This document shows positions 47,313-52,068 of a stretch of DNA of 64,000 nt, piece by piece. Made by a program: the position numbers and the translations under genes. Origin of the DNA: Sphingomonas sp. 28-63-12 (GTDB taxonomy: Bacteria; Pseudomonadota; Alphaproteobacteria; Sphingomonadales; Sphingomonadaceae); the NCBI GenBank assembly GCA_002281535.1, contig NCGD01000002.1:124001-188000 (forward strand). The letters run 5' to 3'. The notes under the pieces are model-generated. The model had not been told where the DNA came from. It searched no databases and worked only from the letters and a program-made list of their open reading frames with translations. Every line of letters starts with the position of its first letter. Within the stretch, counting starts at the first letter, position 1.

Positions 47313-47969
47313 TTATCGGTCGGTATAGCCCCGGTCGCGGCTCAGTTCATCGACGTCGTTCATGATCGTTTCAAGCACCGTGCGTCCCGGCGGATTGCTG
47401 TGGGTGCGTCGTGACGGGAGCGAGCCGTCTGTCAGGAGGGTCTCGAGCGCGACGCGCCCGCGCGCAACGCGGCTTTTGATCGTCCCTACCGCAACGCCAC
47501 AGATTTCGGCCGCCTCTTCATAAGCAAATCCGCCAGCGCCGACCAGGATAAGCGCCTCGCGCTGCGGCTGTGGCAGGTGCAACAGCGCGCGCTGCATATC
47601 GCCCAGCTCGACCTGCTTGTCCTGAGCGGCGGGTGCCGCCAGAATCCGGTCGGCGACCAGATCATCCCATTCGCCGCGAAAGCGCGACCGTCGCATTTGC
47701 GACAGATAGAGATTGCGCAGGATGATGAAGGTCCAGGCGCGCATATTCGTTCCGGCCTGAAAGCGGGCCCGGGCAGCCCAGGCCTTCAACAGGGTTTCCT
47801 GGACCAGATCATCGGCAAGATCCCGGCTGCCCGACACCGAGCGACCAAAAGCGCGCAAATGCGGGATGACCTGCGCGAGTTGCGCCTTGAATTCGGCGTC
47901 AGGCAGCGCAATCCGCTCTTCGGGAATCGCGTCCGGCGCATCGTCATCAATGTCGTGGTGATCGGTCAT
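47313..47969 (-). CDS. ecfG: ECF sigma factor EcfG (general stress response)
   Basis: 218 residues of the ECF15/EcfG type. Region 2 contains LADDLVQETLLKAWAARARFQ and NMRAWTFIILRNLYLSQMRR, region 4 the helix-turn-helix GFAYEEAAEICGVAVGTIKSRVARGR, followed by a 45-residue tail. EcfG recognises GGAAC-N16/17-CGTT promoters. In unstressed cells NepR holds it; phosphorylated PhyR takes NepR away. phyR and nepR lie about 0.3 and 1.3 kb upstream. Unlike the common nepR-ecfG operon, ecfG here is transcribed on its own or after the small membrane peptide. Confidence 0.94.
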   Translation of the reverse strand: MTDHHDIDDDAPDAIPEERIALPDAEFKAQLAQVIPHLRAFGRSVSGSRDLADDLVQETLLKAWAARARFQAGTNMRAWTFIILRNLYLSQMRRSRFRGEWDDLVADRILAAPAAQDKQVELGDMQRALLHLPQPQREALILVGAGGFAYEEAAEICGVAVGTIKSRVARGRVALETLLTDGSLPSRRTHSNPPGRTVLETIMNDVDELSRDRGYTDR

Positions 47970-48090
47970 GCGACTCCGTTCGGGCTCGCGATAGCAATTG
48001 TCCGGAGCCGAACGTGGCGCCGGGTGTCGTCAGGCCAGCACTCGTTGTTGCGCACCCGCATCGGCGGCGTTCCCCTCAACATGGCCGCGC

Positions 48091-48228
48091 TCAACGAATG
48101 AACAGCACAGCGAAGATAATGACGATAAGCACCAGCGAGATGCCGAGCACGAAGCGCACGCCGTTGCGCGTGGTCCCCGCCCGGGCATCTTGGTCGCTGA
48201 TATGCACTGAGTTTTTTTGATCGGTCAT
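48091..48228 (-). CDS. 45-residue single-span membrane peptide in the stress locus
   Basis: A small gene on the minus strand between phyR and ecfG. The product begins MTDQKNSVHISDQDARAG, is hydrophilic for about 24 residues, then has one uninterrupted hydrophobic helix (about 25-44, FVLGISLVLIVIIFAVLFI) and ends in Arg. Codon use is that of the neighbours. The ATG follows directly on an inverted repeat (48229-48252) that would hide the ribosome binding region. The inferred topology is a cytoplasmic N-terminus. Function unknown; the position suggests membership of the EcfG regulon. Confidence 0.72.
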   Translation of the reverse strand: MTDQKNSVHISDQDARAGTTRNGVRFVLGISLVLIVIIFAVLFIR

Positions 48229-48252
48229 ACGGGTTCAACTCATCAAACCCGT
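48229..48252 (-). promoter_or_regulatory. inverted repeat abutting the start of the 45-residue peptide gene
   Basis: ACGGGTT (48229-48235) and AACCCGT (48246-48252) pair perfectly around a 10-base loop. On the minus strand the hairpin ends at the base before the ATG, so the ribosome binding region lies in the loop and 3' arm. It may act as a translational control element or end the phyR message. Confidence 0.5.
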
Positions 48253-48268
48253 TTTGGGTCCGTATCGA

Positions 48269-49072
48269 TTATTCAGCCGGCAAGGTTGCCTTGTCGAAGA
48301 ACAGCGCTTGGGCAATCGCCGCCTTCACGGTCGACCGCTGGAACGGTTTGGTGATCAGGAAGGTCGGCTCGGGCCGTTCGCCGGTCAACAGCCGTTCCGG
48401 GAAAGCAGTGATGAAGATCACCGGCACCGCAAACTGGGCCAGGATATCCTTGACCGCATCGATACCCGAACTGTCGTCCGCCAACTGGATATCGGCGAGG
48501 ACCAGGCCAGGCCGATCCTCCATCGCCAACGCAACCGCCTCGTCGCGTGTGACGGCAACGCCAGTCACGTCATGGCCGAGATCACGCACGATCGTCTCGA
48601 TATCCATGGCGATGATTGGCTCGTCCTCGACGATCAGGACGCGGGCACGCGTCTGCTTCTCGATTTCGGCAAGCGCATCGCTGACCAGCGAGTCGAGCGT
48701 CGACGGATCGACATCGATCAGGAACGCGGCGTCCTCGGGAGTGAAGCCCTCCATGGCGGTGAGCAGCAGTGCCTGGCGCGAAAGCGGCGTCATCCGCGCT
48801 AGCCGGGCGCGCGCAATGCTCTCGGGATCGCCGCCGATCACCGTTAGCTCATGCCCGCGTCCATCCAGGTTGGTCGATGCCCAGATCACCTGAAAAGTTC
48901 GGTACAGTCCAAGCCGTGGATCGACATCACGGGGAAATTCTTCCGGTGCCGCAACGATCGCCTCGAGCGTGGCGCGTACATAATGATCGCCGTGCGACTG
49001 GCTGCCCGTCAGGGCGCGCGCATAACGGCGCAAAAAGGGGAGATGCGGTGCAAGCTGTTGTCCAAGCGACAT
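48269..49072 (-). CDS. phyR: anti-anti-sigma response regulator PhyR
   Basis: 267 residues from the ATG at 49072 (GGGAG upstream). The N-terminal sigma-like domain (about 1-140, LAPHLPFLRRYARALTGSQ ... SIARARLARMTPLSRQALLLT) mimics EcfG without a full DNA-binding capacity, and the C-terminal receiver (about 143-260) has Asp194 in VLADIQLADDSSG, with EDE near 149-151 and Lys in FLITKPF. On phosphorylation it binds NepR and frees EcfG. It is divergent from nepR across 231 bases. Confidence 0.96.
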   Translation of the reverse strand: MSLGQQLAPHLPFLRRYARALTGSQSHGDHYVRATLEAIVAAPEEFPRDVDPRLGLYRTFQVIWASTNLDGRGHELTVIGGDPESIARARLARMTPLSRQALLLTAMEGFTPEDAAFLIDVDPSTLDSLVSDALAEIEKQTRARVLIVEDEPIIAMDIETIVRDLGHDVTGVAVTRDEAVALAMEDRPGLVLADIQLADDSSGIDAVKDILAQFAVPVIFITAFPERLLTGERPEPTFLITKPFQRSTVKAAIAQALFFDKATLPAE

Positions 49073-49184
49073 GATCGACAAATTCTCCCTGCGTGACTGT
49101 CCGCTCAATGTGCTGGCGGCAGTGCGTCGTTACAATCGGTAATGCGTCTTTCACAAAATAGATTTGTGTTTTTGCATCGCAGGC

Positions 49185-49303: not shown

Positions 49304-49468
49304 TTGAGTTCTGATCGTGAGACGTCGAAGAAAGCGCCCCCCCAGCGCTCCGCCAAGGCTCGTGGCGGCGATCAGGAAATGGGTCAGGCGCTGCGTTCTG
49401 TGTATCAACAGACGATCGATGAGCAGATTCCACCCGAAATGCTCGATCTGCTGGGCAAGCTTGAATAA
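49304..49468 (+). CDS. nepR: anti-sigma factor NepR
   Basis: 54 residues, shorter than most gene callers accept. The start is TTG at 49304 with a G-rich site (49293-49297) upstream; no ATG is available before the conserved part. The NepR core is unmistakable: MGQALRSVYQQTIDEQIPPE followed by MLDLLGKLE, the two amphipathic helices that clamp EcfG and are captured by PhyR. The first 25 residues are basic and unstructured. It is cotranscribed with the downstream kinase (gap of nine bases) and probably autoregulated by the EcfG-type promoter at 49185. Confidence 0.93.
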   Translation: MSSDRETSKKAPPQRSAKARGGDQEMGQALRSVYQQTIDEQIPPEMLDLLGKLE

Positions 49469-49477
49469 CCATCGATA

Positions 49478-51082
49478 ATGGATGCCTCCGCCAGCGATGA
49501 TGGCCCCAAGATGCGGCGATGGATCGCATGGCTGGCGCGGTTGCCGACCGGCGCCAAACTTTTTTTGATTCTCAGTGCAGCGTTGTTGCCGCTCGCGCTG
49601 ATCGCGCTGTTCGCTGCCCGCCAGACGACCCAGGCTGCCGATGCCGAATTGGTCTCGCGCACCCGCAGCGCCGCCAATGAGAGCACCCACGCGCTCGATA
49701 TTGAGCTGGCCGGGGACATGACGGCATTGCGCGTCGCCCTCAACGCGCTCGATGCCGACGGCCATGATACACCAAGCTGCGCGCGGGCGCAGGGCGTCTT
49801 CGCCGAACAGCTGGCCATGGGCGCGCGCTTCACCATTGCCGACCGGGCGGGCCAGGTCCGCTGTGGCAGTGCCGCCAAAATCGACTTACCCGTTGAAATC
49901 CCCGATCGCGCCGGCGCGATTGCAGCGAACATCGCGCCGGAAGAAGGGTTGGTGCTGGCAATGGCCGCCCCCAGCGGCAAACTGACCGCCAAGGCGGTGT
50001 TTCCGAAAGCGATGCTGGCGCAGATCGCCCGGCCGAATGGTTTCATGCCGCCCTATGCAGCAACCCTGATCCATGACGGTCAACGGCTGACGCTGCAGGA
50101 TCTGCCGAGCATGACGCCGTTTGATCGCACCGAGTCGGTCGCGCTGCCGCTTGGTATCAATGGATTGAGCTTTGAAATCACCTTGCGCAGCGTGCCGATC
50201 AGTTCGGCGTTGATCGTCGCCATGCTCCTGCCAATCCTGATGTGGGCGGCAGCGGCCGGCATTGGCTGGTTTGTCGTCGACCGACTATTGATCCGTCCGT
50301 TGCGGGAATTGCGGACACTGGTGGCGGGCTACCAGCCCGGCAGCGTCCTCGATATCGGGCTCGCCCGATCGATGCCGGCACAGGAAATCCGTGAACTCGG
50401 CGAAACATTTCGAACGATTACCGGCACCGTTGCCGCGCATGAGGCCGGGCTGGCCGAAGGCCTGGTCCGCCAGACCAAGCTGACGCGCGAAGTGCATCAC
50501 CGGGTCAAGAACAACCTGCAGGTCATTTCGAGCCTGATCAATTTTCACGCTCGCGGCGCTCGCTCGATCGAGGCGACGGTTGCCTATGCCTCTATCCAGC
50601 GCCGGGTCGATGCGCTTGCGGTCGTCCACCGCAACCATTTTGCCGAGCTTGAGGAAACGCGCGGCCTCAGCCTGCGGTCGGTGATTGGCGACCTCGCCTC
50701 CAATATCCGGGCCAACGCACCGGAAACTGCCGGCCTGTCGATCGTTCTCGACCTGGACAGCTACCTGAGTACGCAGGATGTCGCGACGGCCGTCGCCTTT
50801 CTGCTCACCGAAATCGTCGAGCTGGCGATGATGGTCCAGAGCGATGCTGCGCTGCGGATTTCGCTCAAGCCGGAAATTGACGACGCCGAACCAACCGACA
50901 GGCGCGCGGTGCTGAGGATCAGTTCGCCGGCGCTGATCGATGGCGAACAACTCAGGACCGAGCTGTCGGAACGCTATGGACGGGTCATCGAAGGCCTGTC
51001 GCGCCAATTACGATCGAAATTGCATCATGATCCGCTGGTCGGCGCCTATGAAATCGTGATTGCCACCACCGGCCGCGACTGA
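49478..51082 (+). CDS. phyP: PhyP-like membrane sensor kinase/phosphatase of the general stress response
   Basis: 534 residues. Membrane helices at about 26-47 and 248-270 flank a periplasmic sensor domain (about 48-247) with two Cys, followed by a HAMP-like segment and a HisKA_2 dimerisation domain with LTREVHHRVKNNLQVISSL (His341). The C-terminal ATPase region is degenerate: EIVELAMMV replaces the N box, and no DxGxG or GLGL boxes follow. In Sphingomonas Fr1 the kinase-like protein encoded beside nepR, PhyP, acts as a negative regulator, probably removing phosphate from PhyR. Position and degeneracy fit that role. Confidence 0.85.
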   Translation: MDASASDDGPKMRRWIAWLARLPTGAKLFLILSAALLPLALIALFAARQTTQAADAELVSRTRSAANESTHALDIELAGDMTALRVALNALDADGHDTPSCARAQGVFAEQLAMGARFTIADRAGQVRCGSAAKIDLPVEIPDRAGAIAANIAPEEGLVLAMAAPSGKLTAKAVFPKAMLAQIARPNGFMPPYAATLIHDGQRLTLQDLPSMTPFDRTESVALPLGINGLSFEITLRSVPISSALIVAMLLPILMWAAAAGIGWFVVDRLLIRPLRELRTLVAGYQPGSVLDIGLARSMPAQEIRELGETFRTITGTVAAHEAGLAEGLVRQTKLTREVHHRVKNNLQVISSLINFHARGARSIEATVAYASIQRRVDALAVVHRNHFAELEETRGLSLRSVIGDLASNIRANAPETAGLSIVLDLDSYLSTQDVATAVAFLLTEIVELAMMVQSDAALRISLKPEIDDAEPTDRRAVLRISSPALIDGEQLRTELSERYGRVIEGLSRQLRSKLHHDPLVGAYEIVIATTGRD

Positions 51083-51126
51083 GTTTTCAAATTAATGATC
51101 GACAAGAAAAAAATATCATCGGGTCG

Positions 51127-51151
51127 GGAACCGATAATTGCGACCGTCGTT
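51127..51151 (+). promoter_or_regulatory. consensus EcfG (general stress sigma) promoter
   Basis: GGAAC at 51127-51131 and CGTT at 51148-51151 with exactly 16 bases between: a full match to the alphaproteobacterial EcfG promoter. It lies in the 212-base gap between phyP and the convergent tatC, so it drives no protein gene; the following hairpins suggest a small RNA. Confidence 0.75.
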
Positions 51152-51157
51152 GTATGG

Positions 51158-51259
51158 TCGGACAGCGAATTTAGCCCCCCCGCTCTCGCTGTCCACGAAC
51201 TGGGCCCGGACGCGCCAACCCTCCCCCCCCCCGGTAGCGCGTCCGGGTCTTAATTTTTT
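51158..51259 (+). ncRNA. candidate EcfG-dependent small RNA with two C-rich loops (GsrN-like)
   Basis: Predicted transcript of about 100 bases beginning 6-8 bases after the -10 element of the promoter at 51127. The first hairpin has a perfect 9-bp stem (51160-51168 with 51186-51194) whose 17-base loop contains seven Cs (51175-51181). The second has an 11-bp perfect stem (51205-51215 with 51237-51247), extended by two pairs, with a 21-base loop holding ten Cs (51223-51232), and ends in a T-rich tract. Promoter, structure and location beside nepR-phyP recall Caulobacter GsrN, a stress sRNA that pairs through a C-rich loop. Existence and targets are inferred. Confidence 0.65.
51203..51259 (+). 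terminator. rho-independent terminator (3' hairpin of the candidate small RNA)
   Basis: The 13-bp stem (51203-51215 with 51237-51249, one G-T pair) is followed by TTAATTTTTT. It would also stop read-through from phyP into the antisense strand of tatC. Confidence 0.8.
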
Positions 51260-51294
51260 CCTGACATTGACCGGACAATCGCCCGTGCTGCTGG

Positions 51295-52068
51295 TTAGTC
51301 GTCCGTCGCAGGCACTGGTCCGCGCCGCTTCTCGGTGATCCAGATGCCAATGATCGCGATCTCGTATAAAATGATCAGCGGAATCGCGAGCAACAACTGT
51401 GATCCGATATCCGGCGGTGTGAGCACCGCTGCGACCCCCACCGCCGCGACAATTGCGTAGCGCCGCGCCGAAATCAGCTGCTTGCGCGTGACGATCCCGG
51501 CGCGCTCGAGCAGCATCAGCAAAATCGGCAACAGGAACGACAGACCAAAGCCGAACAGGAACTGCATGATGAACGACAGATAATTGTCGATCGCTGGCAG
51601 AGCTTCGCGCTCCACGCCGCCAACGCTGCCCTGGAAGCCGAGCAGGAAATGCAGCGCCATCGGCACCGCGACATAATAGGCCATCGCTGCTCCGGCGGTG
51701 AACAGCACCGGCGTTGCGTACAGAAACGGCAGCAGCGCGCGCTTTTCCTTGCCGTACAGCCCAGGCGCCACGAACTGCCACAACTGGTTGGCGATGATCG
51801 GGAACGAGACCATTGCGGCGGCAAAAAACGCCACCTTGATCTGGACGAAAAATGCCTCGAACAGCTGGGTGTAGATCACCCGGTGCTGGCCCGCCCGCAA
51901 CAGCGGCTGAAGCAGGAAGCCGAAAATCGGTTCCGAAAAATAAAAACAAATGCCAAAAGCCACCGCCACCGCAATCGCGCAATAGATCAGCCGACGGCGC
52001 AGCTCGATCAGGTGATCAAGCAGGGGGGCCCGAGATTGGTCGATCTCATCCAGCACTTCGGCGTTCAT
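51295..52068 (-). CDS. tatC: Sec-independent translocase subunit TatC
   Basis: 257 residues with six predicted membrane helices. LLDHLIELRRRLIYCAIAV is the conserved N-terminal twin-arginine-recognition segment, FFVQIKVAFFAAAMVSFPII and FLYATPVLFTAGAAMAYYV follow, and the Glu of the second cytoplasmic loop region is in LPAID...F. TatC binds the RR signal peptide and recruits TatA. It overlaps tatB by four bases and ends the long minus-strand run. Two RR-type signal proteins are encoded at 60346-62980. Confidence 0.96.
   Translation of the reverse strand: MNAEVLDEIDQSRAPLLDHLIELRRRLIYCAIAVAVAFGICFYFSEPIFGFLLQPLLRAGQHRVIYTQLFEAFFVQIKVAFFAAAMVSFPIIANQLWQFVAPGLYGKEKRALLPFLYATPVLFTAGAAMAYYVAVPMALHFLLGFQGSVGGVEREALPAIDNYLSFIMQFLFGFGLSFLLPILLMLLERAGIVTRKQLISARRYAIVAAVGVAAVLTPPDIGSQLLLAIPLIILYEIAIIGIWITEKRRGPVPATDD

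Follow-up and report, generated by a model that had tools for sequence, protein, structure and literature searches.

A Probable Small-RNA Family under General Stress Response Control in Sphingomonads

We describe a small RNA gene of Sphingomonas that very probably represents a real and widespread family under the control of the general stress response (GSR) in sphingomonads, and that we have not found described in the open literature. The RNA, ~102 nt long, is modelled at 51158..51259 on the (+) strand of the window (the whole 64-kb stretch of DNA analyzed here). It is supported by the stability of its fold, by paired changes in its stems and by counts that distinguish the two strands; its 5′ end is predicted from the position of the promoter.

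Results

The RNA Gene Lies within the GSR Locus

The candidate RNA sits in a 212-base gap inside the GSR locus. Two genes of this locus lie on the (−) strand: that of an EcfG-type sigma factor (47313..47969; Pfam Sigma70_r2, Sigma70_r4_2 and PhyR_sigma2), whose EcfG label comes from the locus context, and phyR, which encodes the anti-anti-sigma response regulator (48269..49108; Pfam PhyR_sigma2, PhyR_sigma-like and Response_reg). On the (+) strand are a 54-aa nepR-like ORF (49304..49468), assigned to the GSR anti-sigma factor from its translation and from a NepR family protein at the same spot in Sphingomonas parapaucimobilis, and, upstream of the RNA, the gene for a PhyP-like HisKA_2/HWE histidine kinase (49478..51082; Pfam PF07568 and PF07536), named phyP in the original prediction. 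The other side of the gap is formed by the convergent tatC gene (51295..52068, (−) strand; Pfam TatC), which we used as a synteny anchor. A plasmid record of S. parapaucimobilis, NZ_CP155750.1, has the identical gene order, except that an entericidin gene separates the RNA stretch from tatC. The RNA stretch carries no listed feature in that record, whose feature table omits RNA genes.

Two further elements of the locus were seen in passing. Between phyR and ecfG (47970-48268, (−) strand) is a short ORF for a small, single-span membrane peptide of ~45 aa, and a hypothetical protein is annotated at the matching place in S. parapaucimobilis. In relatives, the gap between the RNA and tatC contains a GGAAC-N16/17-CATT element in 20 of the 23 loci inspected (for example L070:1596-1932), followed by a gene for a small entericidin A/B-type lipoprotein, read by eye and annotated in NZ_CP155750.1. 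This element is probably a second stress promoter with a variant −10 sequence. A search of the window gave no convincing copy of it; the RNA-tatC gap there is only ~34 bases.

An EcfG-Type Promoter Is Conserved Upstream of the RNA

The original prediction began from a promoter of the EcfG type, that is, of the general stress sigma factor, and we read it exactly as described: GGAAC (51127-51131), a 16-base spacer and CGTT (51148-51151), together occupying 51127..51151 on the (+) strand of the gap between the kinase gene and tatC. It agrees with the EcfG consensus in PMC7083833. Taken alone, the motif proves little. One exact copy was found in the window against 0.39 expected, at least one copy occurred in 29 of 100 shuffles, and the whole genome holds 15 copies, compared with 56 for a mirrored control; in a stretch the size of the 212-base gap, about 0.001 copies would be expected.

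We trust the promoter because of its conservation, not because of the occurrence of the motif alone. GGAAC-N16-NGTT was kept in 35 of 35 aligned copies from the genus, with CGTT in 30, TGTT in 4 and GGTT in 1. We also scanned for an exact 22-base motif from loop 1 of the RNA, which does not touch the promoter; it occurs in 116 stretches, 80 of which were listed and tested. The promoter was present in 78 of these 80 named loci, with a spacer of 16 bases in 62 and of 17 in 16, the whole element shifting by one base accordingly, and the remaining two have GGAAC-N16-CATT. Displaced control windows, up to four per named locus, gave no promoter match at all. We reject a chance promoter-like match on the grounds of this conservation together with the empty control windows.

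The RNA Forms Two Hairpins with C-Rich Loops

Hairpin 1 (51160..51194, (+) strand), read directly and supported by covariation, has a 9-bp stem whose arms, 51160-51168 and 51186-51194, form nine perfect pairs; its loop carries seven C residues (51175-51181) followed by GCUC. Hairpin 2 (51202..51250, (+) strand), for which the fold provides additional evidence, pairs 51202-51215 with 51237-51250 in a 14-bp stem that would also serve as the terminator stem. Its core (51205-51215 with 51237-51247) is perfect, and its outer three pairs include two G-U pairs, so that the claim of two perfect hairpins holds for the first and is slightly generous for the second. The loop of hairpin 2 reads CCC-T-C10 in the DNA (CCCUC10 in the RNA), with the C10 run at 51223-51232. 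A terminator-like site was flagged with its end at 51247, and the hairpin is followed by a T-rich tail, TAATTTTTT (51251..51259, (+) strand, read directly). The predicted C7 and C10 runs, T-rich end and length of about 100 bases were thus all borne out by the sequence. The folding energy of the RNA strand is −49.3 kcal/mol (z −6.55), and none of 200 shuffled sequences was equally stable.

The reverse strand folds too (z −3.48), and a sigma-70-like match was flagged on it at 51195-51168. Across 48 aligned copies we counted 49 G-U cells versus 7 A-C cells in the modelled orientation. Because of this excess, the (+) strand is the likelier RNA strand, and the same counts oppose an RNA from the reverse strand.

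Across the same 48 copies, the loops remain C-rich although the stems change. For loop 1 the longest C run is 6-10 bases in 47 copies, 34 of which have exactly 7; for loop 2 it is 5-14 in 47 of the 48, the window's copy included, with CCTCC present in 28 of the 48. From these run lengths, loop 1 is length-constrained and loop 2 is length-variable. A small coding ORF is disfavored because the lengths of the C runs differ between species.

The RNA Is Conserved within the Genus

A DNA search with window positions 51100-51275 as query covered 61 genomes, 37 of the same genus and 24 from other families of the order. It matched 36 genomes, all of them among the 37 of the genus, and none of the 24 others. 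The only genome of the genus without a match (G007) is fragmented, 84% complete and also lacks a full match to the kinase. We aligned 35 of the 36 copies with MAFFT, leaving out one (G006) whose contig ends inside the RNA. In this alignment 98.5% of 805 cells were paired, and both sides had changed in 10 of the 23 pairs. No shuffle out of 500 reached the observed pairing, and structures slid along the alignment paired only 33-47%.

A Promoter-Bearing Family Extends over 34 Genera

To look beyond the genus we used a covariance model built without the promoter (R1) and a second model (R2); in the large scans 11-15 candidates were scored for each genome, so the following are minimum counts and copies may have been missed. 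R1 matched at least 93 of 249 genomes of the family, in at least 39 of 96 genera. In a sample of the order it matched at least 82 of 296 genomes, every one of them in the family, and in a sample of the class 2 of 337, both in the genus. With R2, matches rose to at least 108 of the 249 genomes and at least 44 of the 96 genera of the family, and in the class sample to 3 of 337, only one of which (L300 in genome G605) is from another family and lacks an EcfG promoter. At L300:2061-2161 there are nonetheless twin C-rich-loop hairpins, a possible independent case of the same architecture.

Among 40 first-round R1 matches that we fetched, 33, spread over 30 genera, had GGAAC-N16/17-NGTT upstream. 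None of the other seven reached 36 bits, and they resemble ordinary terminators. A second round of 20 fetched matches included 12 with the promoter, adding three genera, and eight without. Counting the genus itself, the 30 genera of the first round and the three of the second, we have seen promoter-bearing copies in 34 genera of the family. We prefer this count because the R1 and R2 tallies of 39 and 44 genera include matches without the promoter; we discounted the weak promoterless matches of both rounds, which are probably terminators or decayed copies. Two promoterless loci of the second round, L282 and L295, adjoin tatC and may have lost their promoter. One genus (g46) has the promoter site about 10 bases further down, nearer to the model start; its very divergent copies L285 and L301 come from 2.1-Mb genomes of lower GC content and lie near tatC and a PhyP-like kinase gene.

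The genomic setting is also shared. Of the 33 promoter-bearing matches of the first round, 28 had TatC encoded in the fetched flanks and 31 had TatC, PhyP or PhyR nearby, two of these by weak kinase or regulator matches only. At five promoter-bearing loci (L122, L148, L287, L288 and L289), the fetched flanks contain no PhyP and no TatC. Four of these, L148, L287, L288 and L289 (in genomes G284, G072, G276 and G065), are second copies of the RNA with a GGAAC-N16-NGTT of their own.

When 48 copies from across genera, including that of the window, were aligned to R1, 97.0% of cells were paired and all 23 stem pairs had changed on both sides; this alignment is fitted to the structure and so favors pairing. 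None of 500 shuffles was as good, and slid versions gave 31-45%. The original prediction had staked itself on a covariance search of this gap across relatives, and it came through: the promoter is kept, and the stems show compensatory changes.

The exact loop-1 stretches belong, among the matches listed, to Sphingomonas, Stakelama, Sphingosinicella, Sphingomicrobium, Allosphingosinicella and unclassified bins. All 80 listed stretches were matched by R2, although two are truncated at the stretch end; the match to hairpin 1 is given by construction. The exact motif was also seen in seven viral (phage) stretches, with a best model score of 18.3 bits. Separately, four loci (L144:2478-2564, L147:2418-2505, L153:2482-2564 and L156:2403-2484) carry terminators with C-rich, CCCCCTCCC-like loops directly 3′ of apparently one same gene; these could be 3′UTR-derived RNAs.

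We also examined 28 genomes without a match, from 28 genera of the family. tatC was present in all 28, and the RNA model found nothing at these tatC loci, of which 27 are informative, as one (L328) ends inside tatC; another (L320) has a single promoter-like match and no match to the RNA model. The RNA gene therefore seems to be absent from its usual place in those genera and, because tatC is there without the RNA beside it, would be dispensable in them. Erythrobacter litoralis belongs to the same order. The absence agrees with PMC5869019, which reports no apparent gsrN-like gene in that species.

The RNA Resembles Known C-Rich-Loop RNAs

No Rfam family matched the RNA at curated thresholds, the sole match above a gathering score being a tRNA elsewhere. 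Below threshold, the 212-base query gave E-values of 0.024 for ar14, 0.23 for Scr3202, 0.36 for Atu_C10 and 4 for 6C. None of these recurred in 13 loci from other genera, searched less sensitively as one 65-kb query, and we judged them to be effects of chance or composition. By definition, a 6C RNA has two hairpins with at least six consecutive C in each. The window's RNA, with C7 and C10, has this trait, and its score against the 6C model (RF01066) was 17.0 bits, E 4, compared with a gathering score of 47. Against alpha-r14/NfeR1 (RF02344) it scored 21.7 bits, E 0.024, where the gathering score is 58.8; that family has three hairpins, each with CCUCCUCCC, and the window's copy has two and no CCUCCUCCC.

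The closest parallel in regulation is GsrN of Caulobacter crescentus, which activates katG by pairing of its C-rich 5′ loop with the katG leader (PMC5869019). Both RNAs have a stress ECF sigma promoter, a length of about 100 nt, an intrinsic terminator and a C-rich loop in the 5′ portion (with six C in a row in GsrN, seven here), and GsrN homologs typically lie near GSR genes (PMC5869019). Two of the three criteria by which the authors of that study searched for GsrN, a near-consensus EcfG/SigT promoter upstream and closeness to the ecfG-nepR-phyR locus, describe this RNA as well; the third is intergenic transcription that depends on the GSR (PMC5869019). The two differ in that the RNA described here has no sequence match with an EcfG promoter outside the family in the class sample and has a second C-rich loop in its terminator hairpin; the G tract of the katG leader, moreover, is not seen here. 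The description "GsrN-like" in the original prediction is supported as an analogy only.

In its loops the RNA resembles the 6C/B11 RNAs of Actinobacteria, which likewise have two C-rich loops and a last hairpin that is the terminator, and which pair with G tracts near ribosome-binding sites (PMC12395582, PMC10470900). B11 of Mycobacterium marinum, from a different phylum, differs in having three stem-loops, two of which carry six and nine C in their loops, and its terminator loop represses targets via their G tracts (PMC12395582); in M. abscessus either C-rich loop of B11 suffices (PMC10470900). Twin C-rich loops in one RNA are thus not new, and the suggestion that they would make a notable variant was overtaken by these mycobacterial RNAs (PMC12395582, PMC10470900). 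Overall, the RNA is analogous to GsrN in its wiring and to 6C in its loops.

Other systems are more distant. The rhizobial "cuckoo"-type RNA NfeR1 (alpha-r14) is also from Alphaproteobacteria and linked to stress, and its hairpins expose C-rich anti-Shine-Dalgarno loops, but it has three such motifs, three hairpins with CCUCCUCCC and a sigma-70 promoter (PMC10746234). The SuhB sRNA of Sphingopyxis granuli comes from the same order but is 61 nt long and controlled by growth rate (PMC6563040), and the Zms RNAs of Zymomonas are small RNAs from the same order (PMC6970203, PMC7064620). In the open-access literature that we covered, we recognized no GSR small RNA of sphingomonads. In their main text, the sphingomonad regulon papers PMC6599016 and PMC7083833 make no mention of sRNA, small RNA or intergenic, and the one "non-coding" in PMC7083833 is the SuhB title in its references.

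A Search for Targets

We looked at the katG leaders of Sphingomonas in 30 loci, fetched from 50 matches over the cut-off. GGGGG occurred within 60 bases before the chosen start in 1 of the 30, where the choice of start was crude and none was found in L346. katG is thus not supported as a target, and the best known GsrN target is not seen here. A scan of the genome for GGGGGG-N2-12-ATG gave 179 sites versus 53 for a mirrored control, with overlapping matches counted and ATG turned into GTA in the mirror. The first 30 of the 179 matches comprised 20 distinct sites, and 7 of these opened an ORF at least 100 aa long, compared with a background of 30%; the scan therefore identifies no targets. By eye, two of the seven ORFs are glutathione peroxidase-like (L366) and glucokinase-like (L367), which we note only as a lead.

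Discussion

Stress activates PhyR, which binds NepR and so frees EcfG. We think it likely that the best explanation of our data is a C-loop RNA that is made from an EcfG promoter and regulates mRNAs by pairing at their G-rich ribosome-binding regions. EcfG would transcribe the RNA from 51127-51151, a promoter whose conservation is observed and whose activity is predicted, and the two covarying hairpins would present the C-rich loops to G-rich stretches at or near the ribosome-binding sites of target mRNAs. We infer this mode of pairing from the conservation of the loops and from the precedents of GsrN, B11/6C and NfeR1. It would mostly lower, and sometimes raise, translation of the targets, and the RNA would probably adjust the set of proteins produced under stress. 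Of the two seeds, that in loop 1, mostly C7 followed by GCUC, would be under the tighter constraint; loop 2, which belongs to the terminator hairpin, varies in length and often contains CCUCC, the complement of the GGAGG ribosome-binding core.

Might the locus hold nothing more than a pair of terminator hairpins, serving phyP and the convergent tatC, with a promoter-like match by chance? The T-rich tract after hairpin 2, the position between two convergent genes and a promoter motif that by itself could turn up in the window by chance would all fit. We nevertheless consider this very improbable: the promoter, which follows the phyP stop and precedes hairpin 1, is retained by 78 of the 80 listed named loci and gave no match in displaced windows, hairpin 1 has no T tract, and promoter-bearing copies occur at five loci (L122 and L148 among them) whose fetched flanks contain neither PhyP nor TatC. 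The C-rich loops might instead bind a cold-shock-type or other polypyrimidine-binding protein, making the RNA a sponge and not a base-pairing regulator. Loops that are kept as C runs, with the length of loop 2 left free, would suit an RNA that titrates a protein, and the G-tract scan identified no targets; but the precedents with C-rich loops pair with G tracts in mRNAs (PMC12395582, PMC10470900, PMC5869019), and we regard a sponge as quite unlikely.

It is also unlikely, in our estimate, that the RNA and Caulobacter GsrN are true orthologs, diverged past sequence recognition and sharing the same core targets. The RNA does share with GsrN, which was compared by its published description, a sigma dependence as judged from the promoter, closeness to the GSR locus, a length near 100 nt, an intrinsic terminator and a loop rich in C close to the 5′ end (PMC5869019). 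Against orthology, R1 and R2 match just 2 and 3 of the 337 genomes in the class sample, where the one match from another family has no EcfG promoter, and the G tract was found in a single katG leader of 30. The reading that we favor is a C-loop RNA that pairs with ribosome-binding regions. A fuller version of it, which we offer tentatively and hold to be less likely than not, is that the RNA forms a lineage-specific, post-transcriptional arm of the GSR, long kept in sphingomonads and working through two seeds: a near-fixed C7 loop, and a terminator loop with CCUCC and a C tract of variable length. The terminator loop would evolve, perhaps switching by slippage, and so change the set of ribosome-binding sites that the RNA masks during stress. 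Some genera would have added a second promoter-bearing copy.

Work on the GSR of sphingomonads has so far centered on kinases, PhyR, NepR, EcfG and the protein genes that they regulate. An RNA behind an EcfG-type promoter, as seen in 34 genera, would add to the response an arm for repression or retuning, and would explain how a sigma factor, an activator, could lower gene expression. It would also be a second, apparently separate case beside GsrN in which RNAs with C-rich loops have been recruited to alphaproteobacterial stress control.
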